Shown: positions 6,948-59,079 of the stretch, one piece after another
Numbering within the stretch: position 1 is the stretch's first letter
How the letters are laid out: each line of letters opens with the position of its first letter
Origin: Quercus robur
Taxonomy: Eukaryota; Streptophyta; Magnoliopsida; Fagales; Fagaceae
DNA length: 64,000 bases
Assembly (NCBI RefSeq): GCF_932294415.1
Contig: NC_065535.1
Location: 96,178,862-96,242,861, forward strand
Direction: 5' to 3'
Translations under genes and position numbers: made by a program
The notes under the pieces: model-generated
What the model saw: the letters and a program-made list of their open reading frames with translations, nothing else
What the model was told of the DNA's origin: nothing
Databases searched by the model: none

Positions 6948-7137
6948 AAAAAAAAAAAATTTCTTTTCCGCTCGCTAGGAGTTTTCCTTCTCACCTAGGG
7001 TGAGCCACCTTTCTTCACCATGACTCTTCCTCGTGGTTTTGTATTTCTTTTTCTCTTTCTTCCCCCCTTTTCTTTCTTTTACACCTCACTGGTCTTTGAA
7101 GGTACTAGACCAAGGGACTGAAATCTCGAGCACTGAG

Positions 7138-8097
7138 ATGGATGCCGAAGTTATTGATCGATTGCATTGGATTAAGTTAATTTCAAAGGAAGGCGAAGTT
7201 ATCTTTGTAAGGCCAGATAGAAGGGATAAAACCCTAGAAGAGTGCTCCCTTAGCCTTCTCGAAAAATTCTTAGCACCTCGTCCATTAAACCTAAGAGCTG
7301 CCAAGAACCTCCTTCGATCAGTTTGGAAGATGGGACCAAACCTCAAGATAATCGAGGTTGGCGACAGTTTGCTTCAGTTTAAGTTTGCATTGGAGAGCCA
7401 GGTATCATGGGTCGTGAATAACGGACCCTGGAGCTTTGATAATAGGGTCCTCGTATTGAAGCGATGGGAACAGGGCATGACGGCACAGTCAGTCACTTTC
7501 ACTGACTTGCCTATTTGGGTACAAATCTGGAGTCTGCCTTTTGATCTCATCAATGCAGAGGCGGGCTTGGAGATTGGAAAAAGTTTTGTTCAAGTTGTCG
7601 AAGTCGACTGTAAGGCACTTACCATAGACTAAACGTGCTTTCTCCGAGTCCGTGTGGTGACTCTGTTGGACAAACCGATTTGTAGAGGCGGCCCGATAGT
7701 TAACCCTGAGGGAGATAAGACCTAGATCGTGTTTCAATATGAGCGGCTGTGTGGTTTGTGTTTCAAGTGTGGTAAAATTGGTCATGAGGCCAAGGAATGC
7801 AACATCCAGGTTACCGATGGGGAAGAACTACCCTATGGGGATTGGTTGAAAGCTGGGTTCCGACAGAGAGCTCCGAGAAGTGGTGGTTCGATAGAAAATC
7901 GGACGGGGAATGACCCAACGGACACACCTTTTGCTCCAACTGGGGAGACCGGTGATGACAGGGTCCTAATAAACAGCCACGAAGCCACTGGGGTTTTGAC
8001 GGACTCCAACCAACACGTAGCGTTAATCGAGGATAATGCTTCTTTTGATATGAATGATATCTCGGCGGATTTTTTGGCCATCACGCGATTTTCGTAG
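7138..8097 (+). pseudogene. LINE ORF1 (DUF4283 + CCHC zinc knuckle), broken
   Basis: Starting at the ATG at 7138, the frame gives a DUF4283-type domain (NNGPWSFDNRVLVLKRW, about residues 98-114) to a stop at 7632. A further stop follows near 7723, and then the knuckle CFKCGKIGHEAKEC is encoded at 7759-7800. A low-complexity, basic C-terminal part continues to about 8529. The protein would coat LINE RNA. At least two in-frame stops or shifts between the DUF4283 region and the knuckle make it non-functional as read. Confidence 0.8.
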
Positions 8098-8597
8098 GAG
8101 AATATGACTGAGCGGGTTTCACGGGATCCCATTCCTACTGTATTGAAAGTTGACGTTACACCAAAGGAAACTAGCTCTACACTAGGGCCCGCAGACACGA
8201 GAAAAGTTATCAGTGAGATGACAGCTACGCATAGTGGCTTATTTAGTGTGCCTGTTTCTTACATGCAACCAGCTATAGACCCCATAAGATTGGATAGGAC
8301 GATGCATGACAAGGGAATTGTGCACCCACTACAAATTCCACGTACACAAGAGGTATCCCATGCAAAAGATAGTAAGAAGGGTAAGGGCAAAAAGCCTCTA
8401 AGGCCCACGACTATTTCCATGCACACTAATGACTTGAACCATGATGTGGTTGGCGTAAAAAGAGGAAGGTTGGAAACTGAATGTAGCACAAAGGTGGTAA
8501 GCACCAAGGAACCTCGAAAACGTACTTAGTCTGAGGGACATGATTTGGACAAAATTGCATCAACGGTGGAGGCTGATGGCCAGTCTCGCCGAGCACA

Positions 8598-11500
8598 ATG
8601 ATCGTGATAAGCTGGAATTGCCGAAGGCTTGGGAACCAACGTACAGTGAATGCCCTTACCTTTTTGGTAAAGGAGAAAGTGCCTAATGTTTTGTTTCTCA
8701 TTGAGACAAAGAAATCTGGTGAGAAGATGAAACACATTCAGGCTGATCTACATTACCCCTCCATGTTGGCAATTTCGAGTGAGGGCCGAAGTGGTGGGCT
8801 AGCAATGCTCTGGACAGCTGAAACGAACTTACATATTCAAACTTACTCCCCTAACCATATTGATGCTCTTATTTTTTATAACAGTAACACACCCTCAAGG
8901 TTGACTGGATTCTATGGTCGACCCGAAGAGCATAAGCGGCACGAGACATGGCAGCTTTTACGCCACCTTTCTTCTAGATTCTCAGTCCTATGGTTATGTG
9001 TGGGGGATTACAATGAAATCTTGGTGTCCGAAGAAAAACAGGGTTGTATCCCAAAGCCCCTACACCTTATGCTGGACTTTCGGGAAGCTTTATTTGACTA
9101 TTCTTTGTCTTAGTTCGCGAGCAAGCTCAAACTAAGGAATGGAAGTTACGCGAAGGGTACCGGTAATTGGGGGTGCCCCTAATCTACTTAGGCTTTTAGG
9201 GGAACATTTACATATGGAGTAATGGACGGGAGAGCAACAACTTTGTTCAAGCACGCTTAGATCAGGCTTGTGCCACGTTGGAATGGAGAGAACAGTTCCC
9301 ACATGCTAAAGTCACGCATCAATACTCTTCTTACTCTGATCATGTCCCACTTATGGTTAGCACTCACAACCCAAGTACGCCTACAAGAAAGAAGAAAATC
9401 CCACATAGGTTTGAGGAAAAATGGGTGACCCACCCAACATGTGAAGACACCATCCGTGAGGCATGGGTAGGGTCAGTATGTGAGGGGAGCCCAATGTTTC
9501 AACTTTTTGAAAAGATTAAGCAGTGTAGACAAGCCCTGGTGCGGTGAAGCCGTATGACTTTTGGGAATGCTAAGGAGAGACTAACATAAGCACAAGCTTC
9601 TAGAAGAACTGGCCAACCAGAATAAGGCAAAGAACAATGAGGCCATTCGGGGTATACGGGTTGATATAAACTCATTACTGTACCATGAGGAGGTGGCGTG
9701 GAGACAATGATCATGGTCCATTTGGCTTCCTATGGGTGATAAGAACATCGAATTCTTTCATTAACGGGCAAGCCAACAAAGATGAAAGAATCACATTGCT
9801 GGGACTTTTAATGCCAACGATGAATAGTGTACCACGGATGATGAAATTGCAGATGCAACGGAGCAGTACTCCAAAGCCTTGTTTACTTCGGCTCAACCAA
9901 CTAACATGGAGGTTGTTTTAGACCCCGTAGACAGGCTAGTAACCCCAGACATGAACCACCAACTCTTACAACCATACACACTAGGGGAAATAAAGCGAGC
10001 TTTGTTCCAAATGCATCCATCCAAGTCGTCGGGCCCTGATGGTATGTCCCCGTTCTTTTTTCAAAAATATTGGCATATTTTAGGGAATGATGTGGTTAGG
10101 GTTGTCCTTTCTGTTTTGAACTCGGCCACCTCCTACACAAGATGAACTATACCCACATTATTCGTATCCCTAAGAAGAAGGAGCCATTGTACATCTCAGA
10201 TTGTCACCCCATCATCTTAGGCAATGTGATATCACAATTATTTTCAAAAGTTTTGGCTAATCGCATCAAATTAATATTGCCTAATATTATCTCTGATGTT
10301 CAAAGTGCCTTTCTTCCTAATCGCTTAATCATTGATAATACCACTGTAGCCTTTGAGTTGTTACACAGGATGAGAAATAAGAGGAAAGGGAAACGAGGTC
10401 AAATGGCGGTGAAGTTGGACATTAGCAAAGCCTATGATCGGGTTGAGTGGCTGTTTTTACGGAATATGATGACTAAATTCGGCTTTGATGATACATGGAT
10501 ACGGCTGGCTATGGAAATGGTTTGCACCACTTCTTACTCGATCCTCATCAATGGAGAGCCTCGTGGTCTGGTCAAACCCACTTGTGGAATCAAGCAAGGC
10601 GATCCCCTCTCACCATATTTGTTCCTTCTATGTGCCGAAGGCTTGTCCGCAATGATTCGTAAGGCTGAAGCAAATCGATCTTTTAAAGGAGTTGTATCTT
10701 GTCAGCATGGAGTGACCATTTCTCTTTTGCTCTTTGCCGATGACAGCCTACTGTTTTGTCAAGCCACGGTTCAAGAGTGCCAAGTGTTGCTCAACATATT
10801 ATCACAATATGAATCAGCCTCTAGACAAGCCATTAACTAGCAGAAAACGTCATTTTTTTTTTCAGTCGTAACACCAGACAAGACACACGAGACTCAATAA
10901 AAAATATGCTTGGAGCCAGAATCATGACTGATTGCGAGAAGTAGTTAGGTTTGCCAATGGTTGGGGGTGGAACTAAGACAACCACCTTCAGGGAAATCCA
11001 AGAACGTGTTACTAAGAGAGTATTAGGGTGGAAGGAGAAATTCATCTCCAAGGATGGTTGTGAGATACTTATGAAGTCGGTTACGCAGTCTATACCGACT
11101 TACGCCATGAGCTTATTTAGGCTTCCAAAAGTAATGTGTGACGCCATCAACTCGACCTTGGCCAGATATTGGTGGGGTAAAAAATGCAATGAGAAAAAGA
11201 TCCATTGGGTGAGTTGGCAGAAGCTGTGTACGGACAAGGATAGAGGTGGTATGGGGTTTCGAGACATCAATGCCTTTAACCTTGCAATGTTGGCAAAGCA
11301 AGAGTGGCGACTGATTCATGGCACTCAATCTCTCTTCTATCGAGTGAACAAAGCCCAGTATTTCACTAGGAGCACGTTCTCAGAGGCCCCACTGGGCCAC
11401 AATCCTTCATTCGTATGGCGAAGTCTTCTGTCTGCTAGGGACGTGATCATTGCTAGTTCGAAATGGAAAATAGGCGATGGTAAGTGTATTGGTGTCATTA

Positions 11501-12250
11501 CGCACAAGTGGTCATCTCATGACCCTATCTTCAACGGTAAACCCGACCCTAAGTTGAAGGTTAGTGACTTAATGGATGCTGACATAAGACAGTGGGATCG
11601 AGGCAAGGTCCATGCACTATTCACAGCTAGAACTCGGAATGAGATTCTAGCATTATCCCTTAATGATACACATGCTAGGGGCTCCCTTATATGGATGGAG
11701 AATAAGTCAAGGACCTTCTCAGTCAAGACTGCTTACCAGGTAGCGCTCCGATTGAAGCAGTAGCAAGTATTGGAGCACTCAAAGGCCCAGACAGACAAGC
11801 CAACCTGGAAGAAACTCTGGACACTAAATGTACCCCCAAAAGTCAGAACCTTCATGTGGAGGGCGTGCTCTAACAATCTACCCACTCGAGACAAATTGCG
11901 CAGAAGAAAGGTTCACGTTATGGAGGTGTGCGGGTTGTGTCAGGCAAAACCTAAGACGACTAGGCATATCCTGTGGGAGTGTCCCCTTGCCAGGAATGTG
12001 TGGGCCTTGGTTAAGGGAAAGATTCAAAAGTGTTCCAATGAGGCTCACAACTTTTTCTTGCTGTTCAATTTCATGGTATAGAGCTTAGACCAACGCGATT
12101 TGGAACTTTGGGCAACAGTGGCGTGGGCTATTTGGAATGCCTGAAAAAAGGTGTGCTTTGAGCAAAAACAAACTCATCAAAGGTATATTTTGAGTGGTGC
12201 AAAGGGTCTGCTGAATGAGTACCAAAATCTGATGGCTTCTCAGATTTAAG
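8598..12250 (+). pseudogene. LINE ORF2 (endonuclease, reverse transcriptase, zf-RVT), broken
   Basis: It begins MIVISWNCRRLGNQ at 8598, the standard APE-type endonuclease start; a GDYNE block follows near 9007 and SDHVP near 9338. Reverse transcriptase lies in 9879-10840, with KLDISKAYDRVEW, the PTCGIKQGDPLSPYL block and catalytic FADD at 10733-10744. The post-RT part is 10951-11763, and the cysteine-rich zf-RVT (KVRTFMWRACSNNLPTR, CGLCQ) is 11770-12081. Stops or frameshifts fall near 9110-9280, 9547-9880, 10140, 10840-10950 and 11763. Its role would be target-primed reverse transcription, but it cannot be made as one protein. Confidence 0.88.
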
Positions 12251-20798: not shown

Positions 20799-32121
<11,323 letters not shown>

Positions 32122-34412: not shown

Positions 34413-35008
34413 CTTAATCCCCACTTCAAAATTATTCTTATCTTTTCCAACAAAAACATTTGTAAACAAACAAAATAACATATACTCCTGCTGGTGAAAG
34501 AAGGGGGTTTACATATATTTATATTTTGCCCTGAGGGCGGTTTTCCGATTAATCGGAAACCGCTCAAAACTTTTGATTTTGTATTTTTATGTTTAAAATT
34601 GCAGCAGGGAACAAAGTAAGATTTCAAATCTTAGTGAATTTTGTGTGTGTTGAAGTCATAGAACTTGTATTTTTCTATTTGCTTTATCATAGTGAAAAGC
34701 ATAACTTTGATATATAAGCTTTTTTGTCTTTTGCTTTTGTTTAAATTGTCCTTGTTGTCACATTTCATTCTGGGTATTGGATAAAAAGTTTGATCAACCT
34801 GTTTCTTTCTGCTTGTCGTTTTTTGAATCCTCTGAAGATAATTTCTTCACATTTCTTTGTATTTAATTTTAAAGGGGGAAACTTTTTCAAATCTGTATGC
34901 ATTTTGAAGGAAAAAGAGATTCCTGTTTTGAGTTGGGTTTTGGCGCCCAATTCAAGAGACACCACAATTTTCCACATCACATTTCCCAAGAGGGAAATAG
35001 CAGAAAAA

Positions 35009-36100
35009 ATGGCCAGAGATTGCCAATGTCAATGTGCCACTCTTCAGCCTGATGAATGGGTGAAGGGCAAGTTGGTTGGATCAGGATCTTTTGGCACTGT
35101 CCATTTGGCCATGAACAAAGCCACTGGAGGACTATTTGTTGTGAAGTCCGCGCAGTCTGGGGCAGGACTTAAGGCCCTAGAGAATGAAGCTAAAATCCTC
35201 CAGAGTTTGAATTCACAGTATGTTGTCCATTGTATAGGGAGGGATATGTTGAGTGGATCAAATGGTGGACACAAACTCAATGTCTTCATGGAGTACATGG
35301 CAGGGGGTAGTTTGTCGGATGTGGCAGAAAAATTTGGAGGGGTGCTAGAAGAGGAGGTGATTCGATTGTATACGAGAGAGATTCTTCATGGACTTAAGTA
35401 TCTTCATGAGAATGGGATTGTGCATTGTGATATAAAGTGCAAGAATGTACTTTTAGGCTCATCAGGGAATGTCAAATTGGCTGATTTTGGTTGTGCAAAG
35501 AGAAATAAGGAAATCAAGGCTATTGAGGGTATATCAGGTTTATGGAATTATATTGGTGGGACACCATTGTGGATGGCTCCTGAAGTTTTGAGAAATGAAG
35601 GGCTGGACTTTGCTTCTGATATTTGGTCATTGGGATGCACGGTTATTGAAATGGCAACTGGCAGGCCTCCTTGGAGTGAAGATATTTCAAATCCAAAAGC
35701 TGCAGTTTTGAAGATTGCATGTAGCAATGAGAGGCCTCAGTTCCCAACTCAGCTCTCAGAGGATGGTGAGGATTTTTTGGCCAAGTGCTTGGAGAGAGAC
35801 CCCCAAAAAAGGTGGACATCTGAGGAATTGCTTAACCATCCCTTTGTTTCTGGGAATTCAACGAGGATGCACACAAGAAAGGAACATATATGCTCACCAG
35901 CAAGTATCTTGGACTTTGGAAATTATGATTCAGATGATTCGGATGTTTCGGAGAGTTCTAATTTAGATGAGTTCCCCAGCAAAAACCCATTTTCAAGGTG
36001 TTGTAGTGAAATAAACGAAACAACAAGAGGAGAGCAGGCAGAGAGTGACTTGGCTTCATCAGAGATTTGGGTTACTGTCAGGTCTGGTGGAAGCTTGTAA
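35009..36100 (+). CDS. MAPKKK17/18-like protein kinase (MEKK class), single exon, 363 aa
   Basis: A complete serine/threonine kinase domain: glycine loop GSGSFG (about residues 24-29), catalytic lysine in FVVKS (Lys46), HCDIKCKN (Asp141), DFG (159-161), GTPLWMAPE and the DIWSLGCTVIEMATG block. A short acidic tail follows, ending EIWVTVRSGGSL. The HCDIK variant and the tail WVTVR match the plant MAPKKK17-21 clade, which signals upstream of group C MAPKs in abscisic acid and stress responses; those genes are also usually intronless. The frame is open upstream to an ATG at 34790 (436 aa), but the kinase begins right after 35009 and the extra 73 residues look like translated leader, so I chose 35009. 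It converges with the uL18 gene. Confidence 0.93.
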   Translation: MARDCQCQCATLQPDEWVKGKLVGSGSFGTVHLAMNKATGGLFVVKSAQSGAGLKALENEAKILQSLNSQYVVHCIGRDMLSGSNGGHKLNVFMEYMAGGSLSDVAEKFGGVLEEEVIRLYTREILHGLKYLHENGIVHCDIKCKNVLLGSSGNVKLADFGCAKRNKEIKAIEGISGLWNYIGGTPLWMAPEVLRNEGLDFASDIWSLGCTVIEMATGRPPWSEDISNPKAAVLKIACSNERPQFPTQLSEDGEDFLAKCLERDPQKRWTSEELLNHPFVSGNSTRMHTRKEHICSPASILDFGNYDSDDSDVSESSNLDEFPSKNPFSRCCSEINETTRGEQAESDLASSEIWVTVRSGGSL

Positions 36101-37241: not shown

Positions 37242-38746
37242 TTAGTCTAGATATACTTTTACATCAATCCCATTATCAATAAGGGATTGAACCACTGCTC
37301 TGATCTTCCCTTCAAACTTGTCCCTATCCCTCGGAGTATAGGAAGCAGTGTAGACATCAGCCTCTCTTGCCCTGTCAGCTAATATCCGACCAATGGCCAA
37401 ACATGCAGGTATATCTGATCGGGACTTGAGTGCAGCTTTAATGTCCTTAGAGTTCGTACCAGCAACTGCAACCTGCTTGCTTGTCACCCTGTGGGTGAGT
37501 GAGGCTGACACAAAGCGTTTTGAGATGAACACATCAAGTGTAAATGGCTCCATGTACGCTACAGTGCGTTGTTTGAATGATACATGCTTGTTTGGATTTT
37601 TTGACTTCTTCTCCTTCTGGTAAGTGTATGGCCGGCTATTATCATCATCTAGGAAATCCTCTACCCCAAAAAAGCTTCTTGGTGCACAATGAACCTGTAA
37701 AAGTGCAATATTAGAGAAATGTTTGTTTCTCAATTGCCAATTTTTGGAAAAATCTTCAAATGATGCCAATATGAGCAACTTAGCAATTGTGATTTCCAAA
37801 ACCATTATTCATCATTTTAGCCAATGGAGGGAAACATATTGAGAATTTAATATCTCATAAAATTAGGAGCTAGGATACAAGTAACGTAACCCTACAAGTC
37901 CCAAGTAGACCTAAAAGTGTGTATATGACTACTGTCAACCACACTTCTTTAATTTAATAACTCCAATAATGCAACATACAAAGACCTGATATGTTTTGCT
38001 CTATTCTAGGCTCCATTTGTGCAGCTATTTAGATAATTTATTGATGAGGTGTCTGATACAGTGCCTATTTCTCTCTTATTTATGAATGCCTTCTATTCCT
38101 TTCTTAGTTTGCTTAATGGTGGACTTTGAGGGCATGACTTTATCCCTTGAGAAAAGAAATAAAATCAAGCATTAACAAATTAGTAGGGGCAACTGCAGGC
38201 ATAACTAAATAGGAATTCACTGTATATTTAAGCTCATAATGCATAGAATTGTTTAAGCTCAAACAATTATATTAAATTTTAAGTATCTGAAAAAGTTTCG
38301 ACATTGCAGTTCCTGAACTTCATTGGATATCAATTGACTCATGCTAATGCATTATAAGTGCCCCTAACACTTCAACCATTTGTTATTCCACCTAGCCACA
38401 AGTAGTGCCAGTCCACAACACAAATAAGAACAACTGTTTGACTACGCTAAGTAGAGACATCGGAATAAGCAGTTTTGACTATCAATCTATATATTACTTT
38501 TCTTTCAACTTTTAGCCAGTTTTAGCGCATGCAATGTTGACAACAGGCAGTAATCAACAAAAGGAAACATTTTGAGAAACTTTTTTTTTGAATACATGTA
38601 AAGTAGATACCTGTCCATTATGAACATCGCTCGTGAGAACATACAAGTAAGGCCTAAATTTGTCTCCTCCATACGCATTAACCCCTCTGTTACACACCTT
38701 CCCAAGCACATGCTTCAACATGTTTTCAAACACCCAATACCCTTTT
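37242..38746 (-). CDS. uL18-family ribosomal protein (Ribosomal_L18p/L5e), two exons visible
   Basis: Last exon 37694-37242 (acceptor TTTTACAG, stop at 37242); previous exon 38746-38611 (acceptor GTTTTTTAG, donor GTATCTAC). Joined, they read ...TSDVHNGQ-VHCAPRSFFGVEDF..., and the fold ends with the uL18 core: SKQVAVAGTNSKDIKAAL, ACLAIGRILADRARE and YDRDKFEGK-type text (here PRDRDKFEGKIRAVVQSL). The protein would bind 5S rRNA on a large ribosomal subunit. Members of this plant family are thought to be mainly organellar; the location cannot be read here. Translation may start at the ATG at 38721 (187 aa), but the T-rich acceptor just upstream suggests a further 5' exon, possibly encoding a targeting peptide, which I did not find. 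It is convergent with the MAPKKK gene. Confidence 0.85.
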
Positions 38747-39562: not shown

Positions 39563-39984
39563 GGACAAAATAGGCTTTTGCCCTTTTTGGGCAAATTAAT
39601 TAGCTTTATACCCCTTTCCCAAACTAAGTAGGGAAATGCACATCTTTTAAAACTCGATTTATGATAAATCGAGTTAGAAAAAAAAAAAATTCTAAAGCCC
39701 TATAGTGACGTTTTTTAACTCGACTTTAATGAAATCGAGTTATAGGCAATTTTTTTACCTATAACTTGATTTCATTGAGATTGAGTTAAAAAACGTCATT
39801 ATAAGTCTTAAAAAACCTCACTATAGGCTCATTAAAACGCCACTATAGGGTTTCAGATTTTTTTTTTTCTAACTCGATTTATCATAAATCGAGTTTTAAA
39901 AGAGGGGCATTTCCTTACTTAGTTTGGGAAAGGGGTTATAAAGTTAATTAATTTGCCCGAAAAGGGCAAAAACCCATTTTGTCC
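39563..39984. mobile_element. MULE-type MITE with long TIRs and perfect 10-bp TSD
   Basis: ATAATAATTG flanks both ends (39553-39562 and 39985-39994). The termini GGACAAAATAGGCTTTTGCC and its inverted partner begin TIRs of about 140 bp, containing CTTTCCCAAACTAAG and AACTCGATTTAT-GATAAATCGAGTT, itself a palindrome. The 422-bp element has no coding frame. A 9-11 bp target duplication with long TIRs is the Mutator-like pattern. The centre holds CTATAGTGACGTTTT and CGCCACTATAGGG units shared with elements at 13.3 and 16.0 kb. Confidence 0.92.
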
Positions 39985-40108
39985 ATAATAATTGACCATA
40001 TTAATAATCTATACATTCCGACATGCAACACATGTTGAATCACTTTGGGAGGAAACTTTGCACATTGTTCCACTATTATTAATAACTAACTAGTTGCACA
40101 CCCGTGGG

Positions 40109-40180
40109 TTCAGTTAGCTCAATTGGTAAAATATCTGATAGTTGTATGATAAAGAGCTATCATCAGGAGCGGATCATTTT
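40109..40180 (+). repeat. tRNA-derived (SINE-like) fragment
   Basis: GTTAGCTCAATTGGTAAAAT fits an A-box and D-arm, followed by an anticodon-like stem GATAGTTGTATGATAAAGAGCTATC. There is no complete acceptor stem, so it is not a functional tRNA. It sits beside the Helitron B 3' end and may explain the lost hairpin. Confidence 0.45.
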
Positions 40181-40640
40181 GTAATATGATATAATCCATA
40201 ATTTATTCTCTTTAAAATTTATCGAAGATAATTTATTCTCCTAAAAAATTGAACTATTTCTAAAAGTATTTTCCAAATCTCTATCTCTACAAATATATCA
40301 TTTTATCATTTTGGATTTTTTTTTTGATTCGATATTTATAACCCAATAATCGAGGGACATGCCAATAAAATGTTAGATTTCCATTTTTTCTTTACGTGAT
40401 GAGATTGTATTATATTTTAATTCTTTTGATTTTCCAGGTGCATTCTTTGTACTAGCTGCATGCATCCTTAATTCCTAAAAGTGATGTCTAGTTAAATGCC
40501 AACAGAAAAGGATAAGACCAAAAAAAATAAAAATAAAGGTTTAACAGGTTAGAATCATTATGTACAAAAACTTATTTACAATAAGGTAAATAAATAAAAT
40601 ACGTTTTAAACAAACCTTACTTCAGTAAAATGATCAAATT

Positions 40641-41630
40641 TGTTAGGACATATGATTGTTAAGGACATATTTTGTGTAATTGGCTAATCTTTTGACAAAA
40701 CGCATTTTATTTGTATTTGGGTAGATCTAAGATGTGTTTAATACTTCAAGAAACATGTTATTCAAGTCTAGTATTAAAGCCATGAAGATTGGACCAAAAA
40801 ACAAGTGAAGAAAAGCTATTCATTAAAACTAGACAGATAGCTCGATACCTACAAACAGATAGCTTGACAGTTGCTCGACAGATAGCTATCTATCGAGATT
40901 TAATGAATGAAGCTTGTCAGATTCTCGATCGATCAAGGTATCTATCAAGGTTACGGGAATTCAAATTTCCAAATCTGATTTTCAGCCTAAGCTTATGTAC
41001 TTGTGTAGGGTTTCCTTTCTCATAACCCTAGACCTATATAAGGCTTATTTTAGAGGCTGTTACATATGAGAATACAAGGAGAACATATGCAAAAGGTGAC
41101 CGATGCCTTATTCTCTCTAAAAGAAGCTACTGCGTCTTTGCGCCTTAGGGTTTTGTAACCAAGTGCTTCTTGATCTTCATTGTTGATGAAGTGAAGAACT
41201 TTGCAGCCAACATTCTTTTTCCTCAAGTTGGTGAGTGAGTCACGTACTAGGATTCGTGCAACAAAAAGGGTGGTGTTCATATATTGAAGAGTTTAGAGGT
41301 TCTGAAGCGGTAGAAGGTTTCTGCTGTAACTTCATCTATGGGGATTGTAGAGTTTAGGGACAAAAGTTTTGTACTAGATCTGAAACTTCTCTTTACTATA
41401 GTGAATTGCTTTTCGGGAAGGTTTCCCCCCAGGTTTTTTACTGTGAAACTAGTTTGTTTCATTGGTTTTCCTAGGTCATCATATCTTGTCTTATTTATTT
41501 TTCCGCTGCATGATTTTGACATGATATTGATGTTTGTTTATTTTAACAAGTTTTATTCATAATAAATCTAATTAACAACTTGGGTTTAAAACTTGTTAAT
41601 TCTATCAACCAGGGTCTAAATTTCCCAACA
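40641..41630 (+). mobile_element. Solo LTR (Copia-like), 990 bp, TSD AAATT
   Basis: It starts TGTTAGGACATATG and ends TTTCCCAACA, with 5-bp duplications AAATT at 40636-40640 and 41631-41635. Inside is a TATA-like CCTATATAAGG near 41032 and a CTCGATCGATC/TATCTATCGAG palindromic region at 40830-40950. No internal domain or second LTR is present, so it is a product of LTR-LTR recombination. Assignment to Copia is by general appearance only. It is nested in Helitron B. Confidence 0.88.
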
Positions 41631-42192
41631 AAATTTAATAGACCCTCACTTATACCAATTTCCATCAAAGACCAAATTGTAAGATAGTAATGTGCCATTG
41701 ATTCCACCCATGTCCACCGCCAATGTCCACTACATATATTCATCAATGTGTCCATATACAAATCACTCACTTGTCATTACATTCATTTTATCAATGTTCT
41801 GAATTTCCATAGAAAATCAAAATAGTGGGTATACAAATTATAACTAAGTGAGTCACTTGTATCTGCCATGATATTGTGGTTTGGTGGCAAACTTGCTAAA
41901 CTTGGCCAGTTGCTTTTGCCTTGGAGATGATGGCTATTAGCATTCTAGGTAGTGAACTTTAAATGGCTATGGGAAATTATCAGATTGTATCAGTTGCTAT
42001 GCCCCATCAATGCTTAGATGGTAGAAAATGTCACATAAGCATTTAAATATATATATATATATATATAACTATATATATATATTTTTATATATATATATAT
42101 ATATTTATATATTTTATGTACCAATTGTTTTTCCTTTCTTTATTTTTCCTTTTTATTTTCTTACATTTTCTTTAATCAAACGGAATTTCATT

Positions 42193-43244
42193 TTACTTTC
42201 TCACAATGTTCTTCCCAAACCCAGAATATGCAGTTACTTGAGGAGTTTTTGAAAAGTACATATATAGAATGAGATCACCAGCACTCATTATTTTATCTCT
42301 AAAAGCATCATTCAGCTCGTTAGCAAGTAAATATCTAAGTACAAGTACTATATGTGCACCAAATTGAATCATTTGAGAATCTCCATGAGGCCTTGATAGA
42401 AACCACAATACCCATCGACCAACCAAATTATTCTAAACAGGCAGATTGCTCTACAGATATTTCCAAGCTCAATACCTATAACAAAATAGGACCCTGAATC
42501 AAACAACAAAATCACTACACCTACAAAGAAATATATAGCAAAAGAACCCCAAAATTGAAACCCATTTCTAGTCCATGTACCCATTTTGCAAATCTTGCCC
42601 AAAACAAAACCCATTTCACATATTGGTGGAGGTAGTAGATGGTCATTTATTCACCACAGACAGTAAAGTTCATTCGAATCAAAGTTGAGATACTAGAATC
42701 ATTGATAAAAATTTTTATTTTTTATTTGTTTCTCTAAGTCAATTCTTAGATAAAAGAAAATAAAAACCAAAATGAAAACATCACATTGAAGTTAATTATT
42801 AATTAGAAAAACATAATAGCAAATATATTGAGAGTAACATTCCTGCAGTCTCAAGAAAGGCAACTATAAAGCAATTTATAATAAACATGATCAAATGCCC
42901 AACTAAAATCAATTTTGAAAAAGAAAAAAATATATTTGAATAGTTTTGAGACCATAAAAATTCAAACTCATTCATCATAAAACCCCAAATTTGAATTACA
43001 TTTTTTTCCCTAGTTATGAGATGGAAATAAACAAATAAAAATAAGAATAATACAAATAACAAAACTCAGTTTGAGTTCATACCCTTTGGACATGAGCTAC
43101 TAATGTTCACCTCTCACGTACCTCAGTTTTGTTCACAAGCTCTAGAGTCACTCTCTGTCTTTTGCACTCATTTGATTGGGTTTTGGCAGATGGACTTAAG
43201 CCATGACCAAAAGAACGGGAAAAACACTTAAGAAAATATCTCAT
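42193..43244 (-). pseudogene. Host-gene-like fragments inside Helitron B, unidentified
   Basis: On the minus strand, 43244-43122 reads as a 41-codon first exon starting MRYFLKCFSRSFGHG and ending LVNKTE, followed by a GTACGTGAG donor. Further on, 42426-42193 is open and reads WFLSRPHGDSQMIQFGAHIV then LVLRYLLANELNDAF, ILYMYFSKTPQVTAYSGFGK; it looks like real protein rather than AT-rich noise. I do not recognise the family. The composition contrasts with the AT-rich Helitron body, as expected for gene capture. Joining of the two pieces is not demonstrated. Confidence 0.5.
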
Positions 43245-43490
43245 TGTAGGGCATACCGATTAATTTGTGGAGCGAGAACAATTGAAAATTTATAAAGAAA
43301 AAAAAAAGAAAAAAAGAAAAAGAGGTGAGGAGGTGAGGCGGTTGCAATCTACCACTAACTATCAAAATTCCATATAATAACAGTATTTGAAGAGTCTGGG
43401 CTAATGGAGAGACATGTGCTGATGTGGCTTAATTAGAATGTAACAACAATAAATGCTGCGTTTTAGCTTTTAGATATATATAGATATAGA

Positions 43491-44088
43491 CTAGTCGCAG
43501 ACCCACGCGATGCGTGGGAAACTAGGAATAGATAATTATATTTTAGTTATTATATAATATATAATTTGTTCTCTAAATTTTGTGGAAAATAATTTGTTCT
43601 CCCAAAAAATTAAACAATTTCTAAAATTATTTTTCATTTATCTATCTCAAAAAATATATCATCATTTTATTATTTGGATTTGTTTTTATTGATATTATTC
43701 ATTTTTTAAGCAATCCATATTTGATAAATTATGTTATTATGCGTTATATTTTCCTAATTTGTTTTCCTGTACTACTAAACAGTTTGAGTTTCAAATATAT
43801 TATTCAAAATTTTCATTCTCTTAAAAAGAAATTATTATATTTATAATTTTTCTTATCGTAGGAGTAGCTTCGAACTATTGATTGGGTTTTGTTTATTAAT
43901 ATAGATACATGAGATTGAAACCATATATTTCTTAGACATTCCTAAAATACCATATTATAAATTTAATATTTAATATTTAAAATAATATGCAGGAAAAAAG
44001 TAGACTTTATGTCTAAAATTGAACACTTCACCTATTGAAATGAAAGAAAATAATTTGTATAACAACATAAAGAGAACGTGATCTAACG

Positions 44089-44125
<37 letters not shown>

Positions 44126-44666
44126 AAAAACTACATACACTTTCATTTATTAAGATTTAATTTCCTTTAAATAAAGCTTCATATATCATTTTTGTCACTA
44201 CACTCCTGTTGAGATTTCTCATCCGCCACATCATTAGCTACATTATTATTCTTTTTATTATTTATTTTTTACTTTTAATTTTTTGAAAATATTAAATATA
44301 TAAATACATTGGCTTTACAAATTCATCTCAGGCAATTTTAACTTTACATATTCATATACTTTAATTTTAATGTTATAACTAAATAATAAATCAATGAAAA
44401 ATTAAAACAAACATTTGATAGACACATTCAAATTCATAGCCAAGATTGTTTTTTTGATATAAATTCAAAATCTCACTTCCAAAATAACTAAGTATTATGT
44501 CCCAAAAAAAAAAAAAAATCAAACAAAAGTGATAAGAGGGAGAGAGAAGACTTGTGATGGAAAACTTAAAAAACCAAACATGCTACTAAATCATATTAAC
44601 CCAAAATAGTATTATAAAATAAATACAATGATTCATCAACCTAAAGTAAAGTTGTAAAAAGAATAC

Positions 44667-44747
<81 letters not shown>

Positions 44748-45484
44748 ATCACCTTTTTCAAGAGATAAATAGAAAATAAAATGAGAAGACGAAGTATCAA
44801 AATAAAAAATATATTCACAAGTCAAACACCAAATTATCCAAGCCATGCTATATAATATAATAACATTATATTCTTGTAAACTATCTTTATATGTAATAGA
44901 ATAACATTTAACTGTCATAGAAAAGAAAAAAGATAATAACTTAAAAATACAAAACCAAATTGCATCAACCCAAAATAAAATTCTAAAGAACACATAAATT
45001 CATCAATCTAAAGTAAAGATGCAAAAAATAAAAAATTCACTAATGGGAGAGAGAATGACATATTTATAGTAATAGAATGAGAATAAGAAGAGCCAAAATA
45101 AAAGAAAGAGGAAGGGATAGATGAAGAGTGACATGAAGGTTGAGAGTAGTGGAGAGATAAAAAGGTAAAAGAGAAATTATGGTTGGAAGTAGTGGAGAGA
45201 AATGAGAAATAGTAGTGGGTTAATCCCATATTGGAAAATAAATGTGAGTTAAAGAGATTTAAAACTTGTGCTGTGTATCCAAGAGTTAGGCCTTTTTGGA
45301 TATACACCATTATTAGTTTCTTTAAGACCTTCTCTCCTCTCCCCGTGTGTGTGTGTATGTTAAAATACTTAATATTCTAAAAAAAAGAAAAAAATAAAAA
45401 AGGTAATTGACATGGTCGCTGATGTGGCTCAACAGGAGCGTTATAACAATAAATACTACGTTTTAGTTTTTAGATATATATAGA
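43491..45484 (-). mobile_element. Helitron A (non-autonomous), intact ends
   Basis: On the minus strand it begins TCTATATATATC at 45484, preceded by A, and ends with hairpin CCCACGCATCGCGTGGG, then TCTGCGACTAG at 43491, followed by T. These are textbook Helitron features: TC start, CTRR end, a 16-20 bp hairpin about 10 bp before the end, A^T insertion, no TIR, no TSD. No RepHel frame occurs; the interior is AT-rich with a (GA)n microsatellite and no recognised captured gene. It abuts Helitron B without a spacer. Confidence 0.88.
44672..44743 (+). repeat. (TA)n(GA)n microsatellite
   Basis: About 9 TA units, then about 28 GA units, inside Helitron A. Confidence 0.97.
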
Positions 45485-45842
45485 TTGACTCCAAGATTTC
45501 TTATGAACATCAGAACATGGACATCTCAGGTAATTCAATCTTGTGGCTTTTCATTAACATTTGCGGCATGCTTAATACATGCAAGTCAGATGAGATGTGG
45601 TGTTTCTTATGACCAGCAAGTAACTTGTAAGAACCTAACCTTTGAAGCAAGCACAAACAATATGTAGGATGGAGAATGTACCTTTTATTATATTAAATTA
45701 AAGTGCACAATTATAATATATAATGTAAATAATTAAAAATTTTATTTTGAATTTCTTAAAACTTTTTGTATAGAATTTTAGGTGGAATAATATTTTATAT
45801 TTCTTAAAACTTAGTATTAGAGTTTTATCTCAAATAAACTAT

Positions 45843-45954
45843 TTTAACAATTGATAAGCTACTTGATATAGTAATATAGGATAGGCCTTTTTTTGGAGTT
45901 TAACAATTGATAAGCTACTTGATATAGTAATATAGGATAGGCCTTTTTTTGGAG
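45843..45954 (+). repeat. Exact 56-bp tandem duplication
   Basis: The unit starting TTTAACAATTGATAAGCTAC occurs at 45843-45898 and again immediately at 45899-45954 with no mismatch seen. A second, imperfect direct repeat (ATTATCCAACGTG-AACACAATAC) follows at 45976-46056. Otherwise 45485-46091 is AT-rich with no gene. Confidence 0.9.
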
Positions 45955-46137: not shown

Positions 46138-49100
46138 TTAACTAGCCATAAAAGGCGAAGTGTTGGCTACAAGCCTTAAGGAGTACAGTCCAAGAGCATC
46201 AGAATTTAAAATAATACAAAGATCTTCCCAAATAGGAGTGTCCAAAACAACAAAATTCCCATCAAGGTTGCAGCCACCTTTAGCAAGAAAATCCGCACAT
46301 CTATTCGCTTCCCGAAAGACATGGTTGACCCTGACTTGCTGGAACTGGCGAAGGAGGTATCTGCAATCATTAAGCAGAGAAGAAAAAGAGTTATTGTAAG
46401 GTCTGGAAGAGTGAAGCAAGTTGACCACAATTTGAGCATCCAACTCCACAAGAAGCTTAGAGATGCCAAGTTGGGAAGCAAGCAGCAACCCATCCTTCAA
46501 CGCCCAAAATTATGCTATGATACTAGAAGCAAAACCGATATGCCTCATGTACCCTTTAACCCATTTCCCTTGATAATCTCGTATTAGACCTCCCCCACCC
46601 GCTTTACCCGGGTTTCCAAGTGCAGCCCCATCAGAATTTAGCTTAAACCAGCCAATAGGTGGACTGAACCAGCGCACTTGAACAACAATATTATGTTTGG
46701 ACTTTTGAGTTTTGCTTATACAGTAAAAATATTCTCTCACAGCCTGGATACAAGACAAATAAAGCTTTGGGTTGGCTGGATAGTTATCAAAAACAACCCT
46801 ATTTCTATGTTTCCATAACCACCAAGCCGCAAAAGGAAAGATGAAGCACCAAGGAAGACCTTTAGCTTGAATGTTTCTGCTACACAAGCAGTTAATTCTA
46901 AGCCAAACCAGCAATTCAAGACTAAGAAAATCAGTAAGAACTTGAGGCACTCCAATGGATAACCAAAATTTCCTCGCAAATGGGCAGTCTCTAAGTGTAT
47001 GTATGATCGATTCCTCTTGCACATTGCATAAGGGGCAGAGAGCAGAGCAATCAATTCCCCTATGTTTAATCACTTGCCTAGTAGGTATGCTAGCATGGTT
47101 GCACAACCACAGAAAATGCCTTATTTTTGGCAAAGTATCCACACCCCAAACCCAGCAGCCAGAAAAAGATAGAGGTTTAGGTTGATCTGAAATAGTTAAA
47201 CGGTAGGCTGAGTCCATACTGAATTCTCCATCAGCTGAAAATTTCCACATTAAAGTATCCTCCCTCTCACCAAAAGATTGAATAGGAATGGCTTGAATTC
47301 TATCAATGACCACCTTAGGAAGAGCAAAAGAAATTTTTCCAAAGTTCCAATGCCCATTTTGGTGAATATCCGAAATAGTAAGAGACTCCTCATGTTGGGG
47401 AAGAGGGCCCTCAATTAATTCTCTCATAGTATTACCCTTCACCCAATTACTTTCCCAAAAACTCAATTTTGACTTGTTTCCCACATTCCAGCAAATACCT
47501 TGCTTAAATATAGGAAACCCCACTTTGATTGCAGCCCAATTAGAAGAGCAAGGAAGCTTCTCTGGATTTAAAGAGTCCCGACGATGCTGGGAGCAATATT
47601 TACTTAATAAGACTTTTGCCCACAAGGAATCTTGGTCGTGATAGAGTCTCCAATTGAGCTTGGCTAGTAAGGCAATGTTTTTGGCCCTTGCTGCCTGGAT
47701 GCCGAGCCCCCCCTCGTCCTTGGGCCTAATTATTTTGCTCCACCCAACAAGGTGGAGCTTTCTCTTCTCTGTAGATGAACCCCACAAGAAATCTCTATTG
47801 ACTTTATCAAGCTTTTCACAAACATGACTCGGCAAAGCAGCCCCCTGCATAACATAATTTGGGATTGCAGCTATAATAGATTTGACAAGAACCATTCTTC
47901 CAGCGAAGGATAGGAATTTAGATTTCCACCCCGAAAGCTTAGAGATAACCCTTTCCACAACAAAATTGTATCTATTCCGGGTTGCACCTTTGTGATTTAG
48001 GGGGAAGCCTAAGTATTTTCCAATATTTGAGGTTTCAACAATATCAAGAACACCACAGATATCCTCTCTAATGTTTGGGGAGACATTAGGTGAGAAATAA
48101 ATGCGGGATTTTTCAGCACTAACCAGCTGCCCAGATTCCTTGCAAAAAATATTCAGCACCTTCTTAATGGATTCAGCACCTTCCTTATCAACTTTGGCAA
48201 ATAGCATAAGGTCGTCTGCAAAGAAAAGGTGTGAAACACCCACATTTTGCCTAGAAGCTTTCAGTGGTGTCCAATTTTTCAACCTACAACTTTCATTGAT
48301 GAGAAATCCAAGATACTCCATGCAAAGGATGAACAAATATGGAGAAAGGGGATCACCTTGACGTATCCCTCTAGTGGGCTTGAAGGTGCTTGATTTACCT
48401 CCATTAATGAGAATAGAGATGGTCGTGATTGATACACAACTCATAATCAACTTAATCAACTCATGAGGAAAACAAAAGGCTTGGAGGATTTTTCAGATGA
48501 ATGACCACTCAAGACGGTCATAAGCCTTCACAAGATCCACCTTAATGGCCATGAAGCCCACTCTACCTTCTTTTTATCTAAAGAGTGAATAAGTTCTTGT
48601 GCAACAACAACATTGTCCAAACCCCTTCTTCCTGGAACAAAGGCAATCTGATTTGGCGAAATAAGTTTATCCAAAAAGGGTCTAATGCGGCCAACAATGA
48701 TTTTTGTAACCACCTTATAGATGGTGTTGCATAGACTAATCGGTCTAAAATTACCCAAACTTTCCAGGCTGGTGCACTTAGGGATAAGTGAAATCAAGGT
48801 TTCATTAAGAAAATTAGGAATCACCCTTGAATCAAAAATATTTGAAACTTCCATACATACAGAATTTTTAACATCATTCCAAAAATATTGGAAAAACCCC
48901 GCATGTAATCCGTCTGGTCCAGGAGCTTTAAATGGCTTTAAGGCCCAAAGGCCATGTCTAATTTCATCCTCCAAAACAGGGCTAGCCAATATGGATCTCT
49001 CTTCCTTAGAAAGGAAGCTGCAACTAGAAAATAGGGCAACTGGATCAGCGGGGGAGAATAAAAGCTCCGTTTGGAAAATCTCTTTAAAGCCCGAAAGGAT

Positions 49101-50278
49101 GTACTATTTAACTTCCTCTTCGTTAGTAATCCATTCCCCAACAGAATTTTTTAACATTCTAACCTTGTTCCTATGCCTCCTGACGAGCGTGGAGACATGA
49201 AAAAATGAAGTATTGGAATCACCATATGCAGCCCAATTAAGACGAGATTTTAAGGCCCAGTATTCCTCCTCTTGCTGTATTATTAAGTTATACTCATCGA
49301 TGAGACTCTTTTCTAACTGAATCAAGAAATGACTAGGGCCATTGGAAAGGGCTTTTTGGGCCCCATTTATCCTGGCTAAAACCCTTTTCTTCCGGGCAAA
49401 GATATTCCCAAAAACCGATCTGTTCCACTGTTTAGCATTAACCGCAAACTCTTAATAGCTGTATGAAGGTCAAGCCCAGGCTCCCAAGTTTTCCTAACCA
49501 CATTTGGGAAATCTGGATGGTGCATCCACATGGTGTGAAACCTAAAAGGTTTATCAGTTGCCGTGGGAGGAGGTCTAGATAACTCTAGTAGAACAGGGCA
49601 GTGATCGGAAAATACCCTAGGCAAATGGGTCACCGAGGCTTCGGGATATAGAGTTCTCCAAGCAGGGTTCGCAAAGCATCTATCAATGCGCTCTAAAATA
49701 AGATCAGAAATTTGCCGACGATTAGACCAAGTGAACTTTGGTCCAGAAAAACTAAGGTCCAGGAAGTTACAATCATCCAGACAGGATTTAAATTCTAATG
49801 CTTTATTAAGATTGATTTGCCTACCCCCTAGTTTATCATTTCTGCACAGAATTTCATTAAAGTCACCAAGAAGTAACCAGGGAAGATTATGTAAGAGAGC
49901 AACTTGGGACAAATTAGCCCATAATATTTTTCTTTCAGCAAGGCGAGGACTCGCATAAACAGAAGAAATAAGCCAAGTAAAGTCAGAATTGCATACCTTA
50001 ATAGTAGCATGGATCTCTTGTTTTGTGGCAGCCAGGACAAACACCTCTACCTCCTCTTTTTTCCAGAGTAGCCAAAGTCCTCCCGCATATCCAATGGTTT
50101 CAGTGACAAAGAATCCATCGAAAGGAAGACCCTCAATAATCTTGGTAGCCCTATCGCCACCCACTCTTGTTTCAGTGATAATCATTATGGCCGGAAAGTG
50201 GTTGACTGCCATTTCAAAAACCCTTCTCGTGAAGTCCCCGTTCAGGGCACCCCTACAATTCCACAAAAGGATATTCAT
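46138..50278 (-). pseudogene. LINE ORF2 (endonuclease, RT, zf-RVT, RNase H), several breaks
   Basis: Starts MNILLWNCRGALNGDF at 50278 (APE endonuclease; LLGDFNEI and FSDHCPVL follow), overlapping the end of ORF1. The RT begins in 49325-48528 (LKPFKAPGPDGLHAGFFQYF, ISLCNTIYKVVTKI) and continues in 48459-46510, with RGIRQGDPLSPYLF and catalytic FADD at 48222-48211. zf-RVT-type LPKIRHFLWLCNHASIPTR precedes RNase H (FKLNSDGAALGNPGKAGGGG; then LVELDAQIVVNLL). Frame changes occur near 49376-49325, 49140, 48960 and 48560, with a stop near 48482, and a TAA at about 46510 splits RNase H where GAA (AEFWAL) is usual. It is therefore inactive as read. Confidence 0.9.
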
Positions 50279-50312
50279 TTTGGAGCAGTTAATATTCGGC
50301 ACTTCCATAGAA

Positions 50313-52373
50313 TTAGTCCCCATCATTGCTGATGCAATCATGCTCCATCCCAGTCTCCTTAGGAGATCCTTGGACGCTGCCCAATCCGGCTTCCACACCA
50401 CCAGATAGTTTAATATCCCTTGAATTTCTTCTTTGCAACATACCAGAAGATCGCATCTCTTGACTGGGTTGAGAATTTGGAACAACTTCAACGTAGGCAT
50501 ATTCCCCAGATGCATTGCGACCGATCCCCTGAAATCTATCACTTTCCTCTCTTGGACAAGCCAGCCCGATTCGTCCAAGTGGGGCAATACTAATGGCCGC
50601 CTTAGCATGTTCAACTCCTGCACTTCCTTTTCTGAGATCAACGGCGTGTCGGTTAGGAACTTCCACCATTGATTTGGGGTTCTGTCCTAAGCAGGATGAT
50701 CCAGGGGAAGACTCCCTGTTCTTACACTGGTCGGGGTGATTAGGAAGATGTGCCTCCAAGCTGCCGCTAGGTCCTCTTCGAACCAACCCATTGATTCCAT
50801 TGGGGCTGCACGGATTTGAGCAATTAGCTCCTCTGGGATGGCTATCATCTTGTTCCTGTACCAGATTGCCTACCCCATCGTGGGAAGTGGAAGGAAGGTT
50901 GGGTAGGGAAAAGCCATGGCTACTCGGACCGGATGCAAGAGCAGATGGTTTAAGGCAAGAATCAGGTTCGGGGTTGGCTCTCTTTAAGGTTTTGGAGCTA
51001 CTGGTGCTTGGATTCCTCTTCTCACGGCCTGCTTTAGAGAGCTTTGCTTTCTTATTCCTAAGATTAGCTGTTTGGGAAGAAGGAGTACCCAGATCGTGGT
51101 TGAAAGGCTTTTGACAAGCCACCTGTTTATCATATTGGCAATCTCCATGTAAAACTTGCGTGCGAATCTCGCTAAACTTGCTTGATGTGAGCGCTGCCTC
51201 AGAGCTATCAGAAGCACCAACGGCTCTCTTCACGTGTCCAGACTTAAATTGAAAGGTCAATTCAGAATTGGGAGATGGCATAGGGTTTGATTTTACCTCT
51301 TTGCCCTTACTTTCCTTGGGAGCGGCACTTGGTTGCTGGTGGGGTGACTTGGTCCCACGGTTCCGTCCCATTCTAACAGAATTTTTTCTTCTAGTAACTA
51401 TCATCCAATCACCAAAGTTGGAATCGGATTGGACACTTTGTTCAGTATGACCATCTTGTTCATTTTGCTGCACCTTTTGCCTCTCTGAAGGACCTTCCTC
51501 CCTATTCTTCTCCATTGGTCTTACACGGTATCCATAGCATTCTTGTTTGTGCCCAAGCCTCCCACAACAAAAACACAAAGCTGAGATACCCTCATACATC
51601 ACCTTTCACCTTAGACGTCCCATTCTGACCAGATTGACTAATGGTTTGGAAAGATCAATTTGGACACACAGACGAGCAAAACTTGCTCTTGAACCCGACG
51701 CGGTGTAGGAGTCAATCCGCAAAACAGGTCCAATGGCTGAGCCGATCTCTATAAGCACCATAGGGTCGTAAAATTCAATAAGGAGCTCTAGAAATCTGAT
51801 CCAAAGAGCCACTGAAGAGAATGAAGCTTTAGAAGCTTTAAAATATGGTTCCCATGGTTTTATTGCTAGAAAGTGCTCCCCAACAAACCAGGGGCCACCT
51901 TGAAGCACCTTGTCATAGTCAGACTTATCACTAAACTTGATTAGAAAAAAATCCTTTCCAAGATCAACACAAACCATCTTTGCAACAGGCTTCCATAAGG
52001 TATTGATTTTGAAAGTGAGGTAACTATATCCCACAGTTTTGCCATACACTTTCACTATCAATGCCTTAGTCCAAGGAGCTCTAATCCTAGCCTTAGTTTC
52101 TTTAGAAAGTTTCACATCCACCATACCTTCCACTAGATCATCCAGTTCAGTATCTGATTCAGCCTCTTCCTTAGCCTCTTCCTCTTTGTCAAACCGAAAA
52201 GCTTGTGCATAGGCACCAGGAATGTCTCCCACCAGCCTATCTTTGTAGCTGACCTGGGACTGATTTGGCTCTACAACTTTCTCTTTGTCTTTCCTTACAC
52301 TCTTCTCAAGCTCTGCATCTTCCTCACTAGAACGTTGGTTAGCTTGCTGAAACTCAGGCTCCATTACTCTCAA
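50313..52373 (-). pseudogene. LINE ORF1 (DUF4283 + CCHC), one in-frame stop
   Basis: From the ATG at 52373 the frame encodes an acidic N-terminus, then DUF4283 (LQGGPWFVGEHFLAIKPWEP near residues 159-176). A single TGA lies at 51608-51606 between RLR and KVMYEG. The same frame continues into the knuckle CFCCGRLGHKQEC and a long basic, Ser/Pro-rich tail to 50313. CGA-to-TGA deamination would explain the stop. Without it the protein would be about 686 aa. It binds LINE RNA in related elements. Confidence 0.88.
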
Positions 52374-57104: not shown

Positions 57105-58939
57105 TCAGAAATCCCTTGCTTCAATTGGAACAAAAATTTCATCCAAATAACCTGGACGACCATTGCTCCACTCTAATGCTTCCCACCAACGCCTCTCACC
57201 CTTTATCTTTTTCAAATCTTGACTAGATACTTCATCAATTAATGGATTCTTAAGATTTGGGCAATTATAAAAACTCAACCATTCTAACTTTGGTGCAATG
57301 TGTAAACCATTAGAGATGCTAACTAATCCAGGCACACAATGAAGTGAAATCTTCTTCAAATTTGGGAGAAAATAAGAGGTACCATGCTCAGCAGAGATTT
57401 CGCAGCTTACAATGCTTTTGATGGAGTGGCAGTATTCCACTTTAAGCTCTCCTAAATTGCATAGGTTATCAAGCAACCCTTGCGTGAAAATAGTGGTCAA
57501 TTGGGGACATGTGCTCAATGTCAAGGACTTAAGAAGAAATAAAGAATTTTGCTGTACTGGCCCCTCCCATATGCTCCTTAAACTCTTCATATAATATATA
57601 TACAGGTGTTCAAGTGATCCAAGAACAATTCTTTCATCATCATATGATTCAGATACTATTTCACTTATACCATCTTCCCCATAAGCATCTGCAGCATCTA
57701 TAATCACTTGAAGCTCATTACATTCCCCCACGACACAGCATTTTAGTTGCTTCATATTTCTAGTTTCAAAATCAGATAGCTTCTTAATAGTCGCATGCCT
57801 GTCCAAGAAAAATGCGGTCACATGTTGGAGTACATTCTTAATATCCCTATGGACACCCACACCGTTTATGTATTTCAAGCATCGCTCCCATCGTTCCAGC
57901 TCAAACTCAGCATCAGGAGGGACTCGAGACAAAATGCGCTTGACATGGTGACCGACAGTAAATCTGAAATTAGAAAGTGATGGGCTATTCCACTGGAAGT
58001 GACTCAAAAGTTCCACCCTTGGAAAATAGAATTTAAGATTTTCCAACCTCTTTAAGGTACATACTTCATTAACAATATCTTCCACACATGCATCCCACCG
58101 CTTGTCATCTGGATTTACATCAATATTCAGCTCCTCTAACTGAGACAATGCAGAAATTACCCCACAAGGAACCACAGCATTTGATTGCATGGTTCTCCTA
58201 CCATTACTCGTATATCCATAAAATGAAACTTCCAAGCATGTCAAATTAGTTAAATTCTTAATCTCCTTAGGTAAATCCAGAATATTTGCCCCTTCAAGAT
58301 CAAGAACCTCAAGTTGCTTGAGATCTCCAACTTTTGGCGACAAAATCATGAGACGATGACAATCATTTAGAAACAATCTTTTGAGGCTTACCAATCTGAT
58401 AAGAGAATCAGGCAAAGACTTGATACCAGTCCTGGATAAGTTCAGGATTTGAAGGGCTGGCATGAAATTAAAAAATGGCTGAGGAATCATTCTTAATTTG
58501 TAGTTTCTTGGAAGGAACAGAGCTGACAGATTGGGGCACCTTGGATTCTCAGGTAAATCAGACAACTCATTGTCCATCAAGTAAATCTCTTTGGCGTTCT
58601 TCCAATCCTCATCCTTTGGTGGCTTAGTTAATCCTAAACCACCCTGCATGAGAAATAATCCATGTTGCTCACTTGCTTCTGGTTCCATCTGACTAGATTT
58701 AAGGATCTTAATTGCTTCACCATCAAACCCCACTCCTTGAGGTTTTAGAGTACTTGATGCTTGCAGTTGCATTTCCTCAACCTGTATACCCTCTGGTTGT
58801 CTTAATTGTGAAGAAGCTTTATTCCCAATTTCTTCAATTTCAAATTTCTTTTGTCCACTTGAATTAGTCATCTTAACTTCTTTAACATCAATCACCATAT
58901 CATGAGGCTCTGACGCTACTTCATCTTCAGTTTTTTTTT
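57105..58939 (-). CDS. At4g27190-like CNL disease-resistance protein, C-terminal LRR exon (partial gene)
   Basis: Terminal exon of about 611 codons: acceptor TTTTTTTGCAG at 58940, stop TGA at 57107-57105. A charged, low-complexity N-terminal part (about 110 residues, KKTEDEVASEPHD...) precedes the LRRs, which begin NAKEIYLMDNELSDLPE and PNLSALFLPRNYKLRMIP, followed by LQILNLSRTGIKSLPDSL and LEVLDLEGANILDLPKEI. Later repeats have the cysteine-rich form (LKSLTLSTCPQLTTI, LEWLSFYNCPNLKN), ending WWEALEWSNG. This matches plant NLR receptors, whose LRRs mediate effector sensing. No CC or NB-ARC sequence occurs between 58940 and 64000 on this strand, so upstream exons lie beyond the window across a TE-filled intron, or the gene is truncated. 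There is no internal stop. Confidence 0.88.
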
Positions 58940-59079
58940 CTGCAAAAAAAAGCTTCCAAGTAAACTTATATTTTCTGTTTAGAAATGACCCAAAAAATAG
59001 GTAAAAAAAAATATTCAAATGATCTATATTGAATAAAGTACATGTGAGTATCATCCAGTATTCCTAAACTAATTGATTA

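Follow-up and report, generated by a model that had tools for sequence, protein, structure and literature searches.

How do two Helitrons come to lie end to end, the last base of one joined to the first base of the next? We consider this question for a locus of Quercus robur, in a 64,000-nucleotide stretch of contig NC_065535.1 (assembly GCF_932294415.1, forward-strand positions 96,178,862 to 96,242,861) that we refer to as the window and within which all coordinates are given. Read on the minus strand, an element that we call Helitron A (45484 to 43491) is followed directly by a second, Helitron B (43490 to 40090), with a host A at 45485 preceding A and a host T at 40089 following B. An earlier reading of the letters alone (the sequence-only reading) had described two Helitrons head to tail at base precision with outer flanks A and T, and the sequence together with family copies elsewhere in the genome confirms that this structure is real. 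The same reading had offered two origins, insertion of A into the A^T step at the 5' border of B (^ marking the point of entry) or a read-through tandem product. The first is the best explanation, since termini, subfamilies and flanks agree with it, and we consider it very likely that B was present first and that A inserted at this step. The features of the locus are as follows.

43491 to 45484, minus strand: Helitron A, non-autonomous, 1994 bp, from 5' TC to 3' CTAG (termini compared with family copies; colinear full-length relative L003).
45418 to 45484, minus strand: 67-bp 5' terminus of A, sharing 84% identity with the corresponding end of B (A–B comparison and 5'-end genome search).
45205 to 45390, minus strand: segment of A matching a dispersed repeat that elsewhere forms tandem arrays with a period of about 176 bp (genome matches).
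43502 to 43518, minus strand: hairpin near the 3' end of A, CCCACGC-ATC-GCGTGGG, separated by 11 nt from the terminus (equalled or exceeded by 2 of 300 shuffles).
43490 to 43491, minus strand: CTAG-TC junction between A and B (sequence, A-type family copies and recurrent joints in the genome).
43485 to 43490, minus strand: additional TCTATA hexamer, which either opens B or forms a 6-bp spacer before it (one- and two-hexamer starts both occur in the family).
40090 to 43490, minus strand: Helitron B, non-autonomous, 3401 bp, start possibly at 43484 (family copies at both ends; 18 other loci with paired ends).
40104 to 40172, plus strand: dispersed short repeat fragment in place of the left half of the B 3' hairpin (27 of 39 other matches start at 40103–40104; without visible duplication).
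40090 to 40103, minus strand: final 14 bases of B, GGGTGTGCAACTAG, matching the intact family end at 12 of 14 positions (family comparison).

The termini of A were examined by searching the window's own genome with each end. For the 3' end, 40 of 1888 first-look candidates were scored, 39 of them besides the window; 28 of these 39 matches stop at query positions 208–227 (the CTAG ends at 210), 10 end earlier, at 172–176, and the remaining one extends to 283, into another Helitron 5' end. For the 5' end, 40 of 987 candidates were scored, again 39 besides the window, and 37 start at query positions 33–39, with 45484 corresponding to position 37 (the other two start at 27 and 43). The assignment of A to the interval from TC at 45484 to CTAG at 43491 is thus borne out, because family matches on both sides end at these termini. 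Seven A-type 3' ends that we fetched finish in CTAG (five), TTAG (one) or CTAA (one), and in all seven the next base is T. A itself has what is expected of a Helitron, namely TC after a host A, CTAG before T and a hairpin 10–15 bp from the 3' end, the hairpin being perfect (7-bp stem, 3-nt loop). L003 is a colinear relative that carries both ends. The inner part of A could not serve as a family probe because 45205–45390 belongs to the dispersed repeat, which is found in short tandem arrays elsewhere (for example L052, period 176, 3.7 copies). Just upstream of A, at 45843–45954, lie two identical 56-bp tandem copies. We also considered, and rejected, a single long Helitron with 43.49 kb in its interior, a possibility that the sequence-only reading had itself raised: 38 of the 39 other copies of the A 3' end do not continue into B.

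Helitron B is likewise found elsewhere: outside the window, 18 loci have B-type 5' and 3' ends in order on the same strand and no more than 8 kb apart. Its start, TCTATATCTATATATATCTAAAAGC, lies directly 3' of the CTAG of A on the minus strand and carries two hexamers, which places the first base of B at either 43490 or 43484. Among 25 fetched relatives that include the 5' end, seven begin with A followed by a TCTATATATATC-type start (TC directly after A, one hexamer in all) and five with A followed by a TCTATATC-type start (TC directly after A, two hexamers in all), the remaining 13 having 5' ends that are degenerate, expanded or otherwise different. The number of hexamers can change after insertion, because the duplicated B-type copies L012 and L014 (C4, 85.31 and 85.37 Mb) share their upstream flank yet differ by one TCTATA hexamer; this change in copy number suggests slippage at the 5' end. 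That extra hexamers are footprints of earlier nested insertions is not supported by the two readable cases, L010 (a two-hexamer form) and B, both of which have 3' flanks other than TATATCTAAAA. Accordingly, whether anything lies between A and B is ambiguous: the absence of a spacer, as originally described, holds for the two-hexamer start at 43490, whereas the one-hexamer start at 43484 leaves 6 bp between the elements.

The 3' end of B, which reads CAACTAG at 40090 on the minus strand, is a likely terminus but less certain than the other three. In a search with this end, 40 of 647 candidates were scored, 39 besides the window, and none of the 39 matches beyond query position 248 (equivalent to 40173), where the 69-bp fragment at 40104–40172 breaks the hairpin. 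Nine fetched B-type copies run on through a hairpin to CTAG (six), TTAG (one), CTAT (one) or CTAA (one), each followed by T, and by reading the hairpin is intact in such relatives. The fragment resembles a tRNA-derived short interspersed nuclear element (SINE). Some doubt attaches to 40090 because two of the 39 other matches to the fragment begin at query positions 59 and 63 and extend past 40090. B has TC after A and, with this lesser certainty, CTAG before T, and its own hairpin is broken; of the extent first proposed for B, the start stands apart from the one-hexamer ambiguity and the end at 40090 is likely. Just past the 3' end of B, at 39610–39936, is an inverted repeat with 79-nt arms that are 96% complementary and 169 nt apart.

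Are A and B copies of one element? The sequence-only reading had assigned them to one family on the strength of homologous ends of 200–300 bp. The shared ends proved shorter, 67 bp at 84% identity (5') and 155 bp at 81% (near the 3' end), other matches being short and of low complexity, and a family relationship as close as tandem rolling-circle replication would require is not supported: in the 3' core A is 94–96% identical to seven A-type copies and B is 89–93% identical to nine B-type copies, as against 73% between A and B, and the branch separating the two groups has support of 1.000. These comparisons indicate that A and B represent two subfamilies, each a separate element, since B-type ends are paired at the 18 other loci and L003 is colinear with A. 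Neither element contains an open reading frame (ORF) above 135 amino acids. The units are thus not copies of the same element, as those of a tandem array would be (73% in the 3' cores, interiors unalike); they are unlike Helitrons that meet without a gap and that each occur singly at other loci, as in the consecutive-insertion pair of maize.

The junction is more than chance, given that family copies back each of the four termini and that the genome has further flush joints of a 3' to a 5' end (reversed-pattern controls gave 0). We infer that B was the earlier arrival and that the insertion of A was the work of a RepHel transposase acting in trans. In this scheme B, an older non-autonomous Helitron, would have inserted at a host A^T, giving a 5' border of A followed by TC, and A, from the other subfamily, would later have inserted into that same A^T, gaining the host A on its 5' side and the first T of B on its 3' side. 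The outcome would be A-TC...A...CTAG-TC...B...CTAG-T, without target-site duplication. If B starts with one hexamer, the A^T that A entered would instead lie six bases before B, with the mechanism unchanged. A single canonical step, insertion of A into B, accounts for the joint, for both outer flanks and for the lack of duplication; for B to arrive second, the target would have to be G^T. The outer flanks are indeed A and T with no target-site duplication, as for A^T insertion, and an A before Helitron A and a T after it are the flanks expected of a canonical AT insertion, which supports entry of A into B. Helraiser inserts at AT and favours AT-rich sequence, most strongly in the flank next to the 3' end of the element (PMC4778049), and the TA-rich 5' end of B therefore fits as a target. 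A second flush joint between an A-type 3' end and a Helitron 5' end, L111 (C37:6428250–6428390), we count as further support. At C1:8.04 Mb, 186 bp separate an A-type 3' end from a 5' end.

Several observations weigh against this account. When the 39 x 39 scored places were paired by coordinate, none of the A-type 3' ends had a correctly ordered A-type 5' end at a distance of 8 kb or less, and the span of A consequently rests mainly on L003. Divergence from the group consensus, 4 of 164 sites for A and 5 of 169 for B, does not date the order of insertion. The locus was read as a single allele of one genome. Finally, the authors of the maize study left the order of their pair open, since some lines had the upstream element alone (Du et al. 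2008, PMC2267711).

The same final sequence would result had B inserted second, into a G^T at the 3' border of A. The maize lines with only the upstream element mean that Du et al. 2008 (PMC2267711) did not exclude this order for their own pair, and Helraiser uses non-AT targets at low frequency (PMC4778049). It requires a non-AT target, however, and the family copies read here have A and T flanks; we therefore regard B as an unlikely second arrival. Considerably less probable is that the pair formed elsewhere and moved here as one composite Helitron. Movement past the internal CTAG is possible in principle, published Helitrons being able to bypass a 3' end (PMC4778049), but we saw no second A–B unit: only one of the 39 other A 3' ends (40 of 1888 candidates scored) enters a 5' end, the downstream part in that case departs from B after about 60 bp, and L105 and L106, whose upstream ends are A-like (78–79%), have downstream parts only 51–52% like B. 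Least credible of all is a read-through or concatemeric rolling-circle product of one Helitron, the second option of the sequence-only reading: head-to-tail CTAG-TC joints do form in Helitron circles (Helraiser, PMC4778049, PMC5876387) and tandem arrays are reported in bats (Pritham and Feschotte 2007, as cited in PMC2267711), but the units here are of unequal length (1994 and 3401 bp) with unlike interiors, and we reject this origin on subfamily membership (3' cores 73% alike, split support 1.000).

Flush joints are found repeatedly in this genome. A genome search for GGGTNTGCGACTAG followed at a gap of 0–30 by TATCTAAAA gave 4 matches (reversed control 0), and one for ACTAG followed at a gap of 0–20 by TATATCTAAAAGCTRAA gave 18 (control 0), in a genome with 298 copies of the 5'-end motif, 114 of them preceded by an intact TCTATA. 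These 18 comprise 11 cases of CTAG-TATATC, five of CTAG-TC (the window included), one of CTAG-TTTG and one of CTAG-AACA. In the 11, the joint with ACTAG always falls at the same base, 6 bp in from the canonical TC start, and the sequences upstream of it are of at least eight different kinds. Base composition alone would give about 6.5 ACTAG over all 21 offsets and 0.31 at any one offset, so that significance lies with the 11 that share an offset, and isolated cases elsewhere need evidence of their own. A pattern that also covers adjacent A^T steps returned 24 matches, every one of them at this offset: the 11 already described, nine with TATTAC and four others that may be due to chance (control 1 forward, 0 reverse). 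The TA run has three further A^T steps nearby, and no ACTAG joint was found at any of them. In the nine, ACTAG is flush to a related 5' end (TATTACTAAAAG, TATTACTAAAAGCTRAA).

In the sequences examined individually, ACTAG is flush to TATATCTAAAAG, six bases inside the 5' end, in L036 (1223–1240), L091–L095, L097–L100, L102, L104, L107 and L109. With a 76% cut, nine groups can be distinguished among the upstream sides of these 14 junctions (the 11 together with L036, L091 and L092), and one amplified composite as their source is accordingly not supported. Within the 11, L093, L094, L098, L099, L102 and L107 have upstream ends at least 85% like that of another examined junction, a significant hairpin is present in L100 and L109, and both features are lacking in L095, L097 and L104. 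The family of the upstream element of L036 extends beyond the 1237 bases examined.

These joints raise the possibility, which we put forward tentatively and from sequence comparison, that the left end of a Helitron is a position-specific landing site for other Helitrons, of many families, in this genome, with entry at the A^T six bases inside (TCTATA^TATATCTAAAAG). A position-specific hotspot would be the simplest reading of 11 joints at one offset: with random insertion at the AT frequency of the window, 100,000 events would yield about 0.2 such joints, and 11 would take about 5.7 million Helitrons. A transposase bound to the left end, or an easily melted TA run, might direct the target nick, and insertions at the outer border, such as that of A into B, would be a rarer result of the same attraction. 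Against this wider pattern, only 6 of 22 tested upstream ends have a hairpin equalled by at most 15 of 300 shuffles, and L096 is without a clear Helitron 3' end. The only upstream 5' motif traced on the far side, an uninformative case, sits within a long TA run and shows no TCTATA-TC. Preferential insertion of Helitrons near other Helitrons has been described (Yang and Bennetzen 2009, as cited in the review PMC12477314); a fixed six-base offset was not reported in the literature searched by full text, whose reach leaves out most subscription papers. If the joints are insertions, they would show where Helitron transposases cut their targets and would help to explain this published tendency.

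The window contains other recognizable features. Two regions resemble non-LTR (long terminal repeat) retrotransposons, 7033–11763 on the plus strand and 46510–52373 on the minus strand, with matches to DUF4283 and reverse transcriptase and, in the second, also to endonuclease. Further matches are to Glycosyl hydrolase 116 (28897–29898), a protein kinase (34790–36100), a ribosomal L18-like protein (37242–37805) and an RPS2-like leucine-rich repeat protein (57105–59054).

The arrangement of A and B is already known from maize, where the CTAG of a first Helitron is joined directly to the TC of a second; the two elements differ, and consecutive insertion was concluded (Du et al. 2008, PMC2267711). 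The two pairs share the direct CTAG-TC joint, the unlikeness of the elements and the preference for consecutive insertion. They differ in that the maize Helitrons contain fragments of genes and were followed in inbred lines (PMC2267711), whereas gene capture in A and B was examined through ORFs only, and in that the start of B is ambiguous by 6 bp. The tandem Helitrons of Myotis lucifugus have similarly perfect head-to-tail junctions (Pritham and Feschotte 2007, as cited in PMC2267711), but were read as tandem repeats of one element (PMC2267711), unlike the two subfamilies here. Helraiser circles contain the same precise CTAG-TC joint (PMC4778049, PMC5876387), but are extrachromosomal and join the two ends of one element, whereas the A–B joint is chromosomal and joins two elements. 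Set beside these systems, the A–B pair is a clear example of end-to-end Helitrons without concatemeric replication, and the subfamily membership of each unit provides a simple test that separates an origin by insertion from one by concatemer formation.

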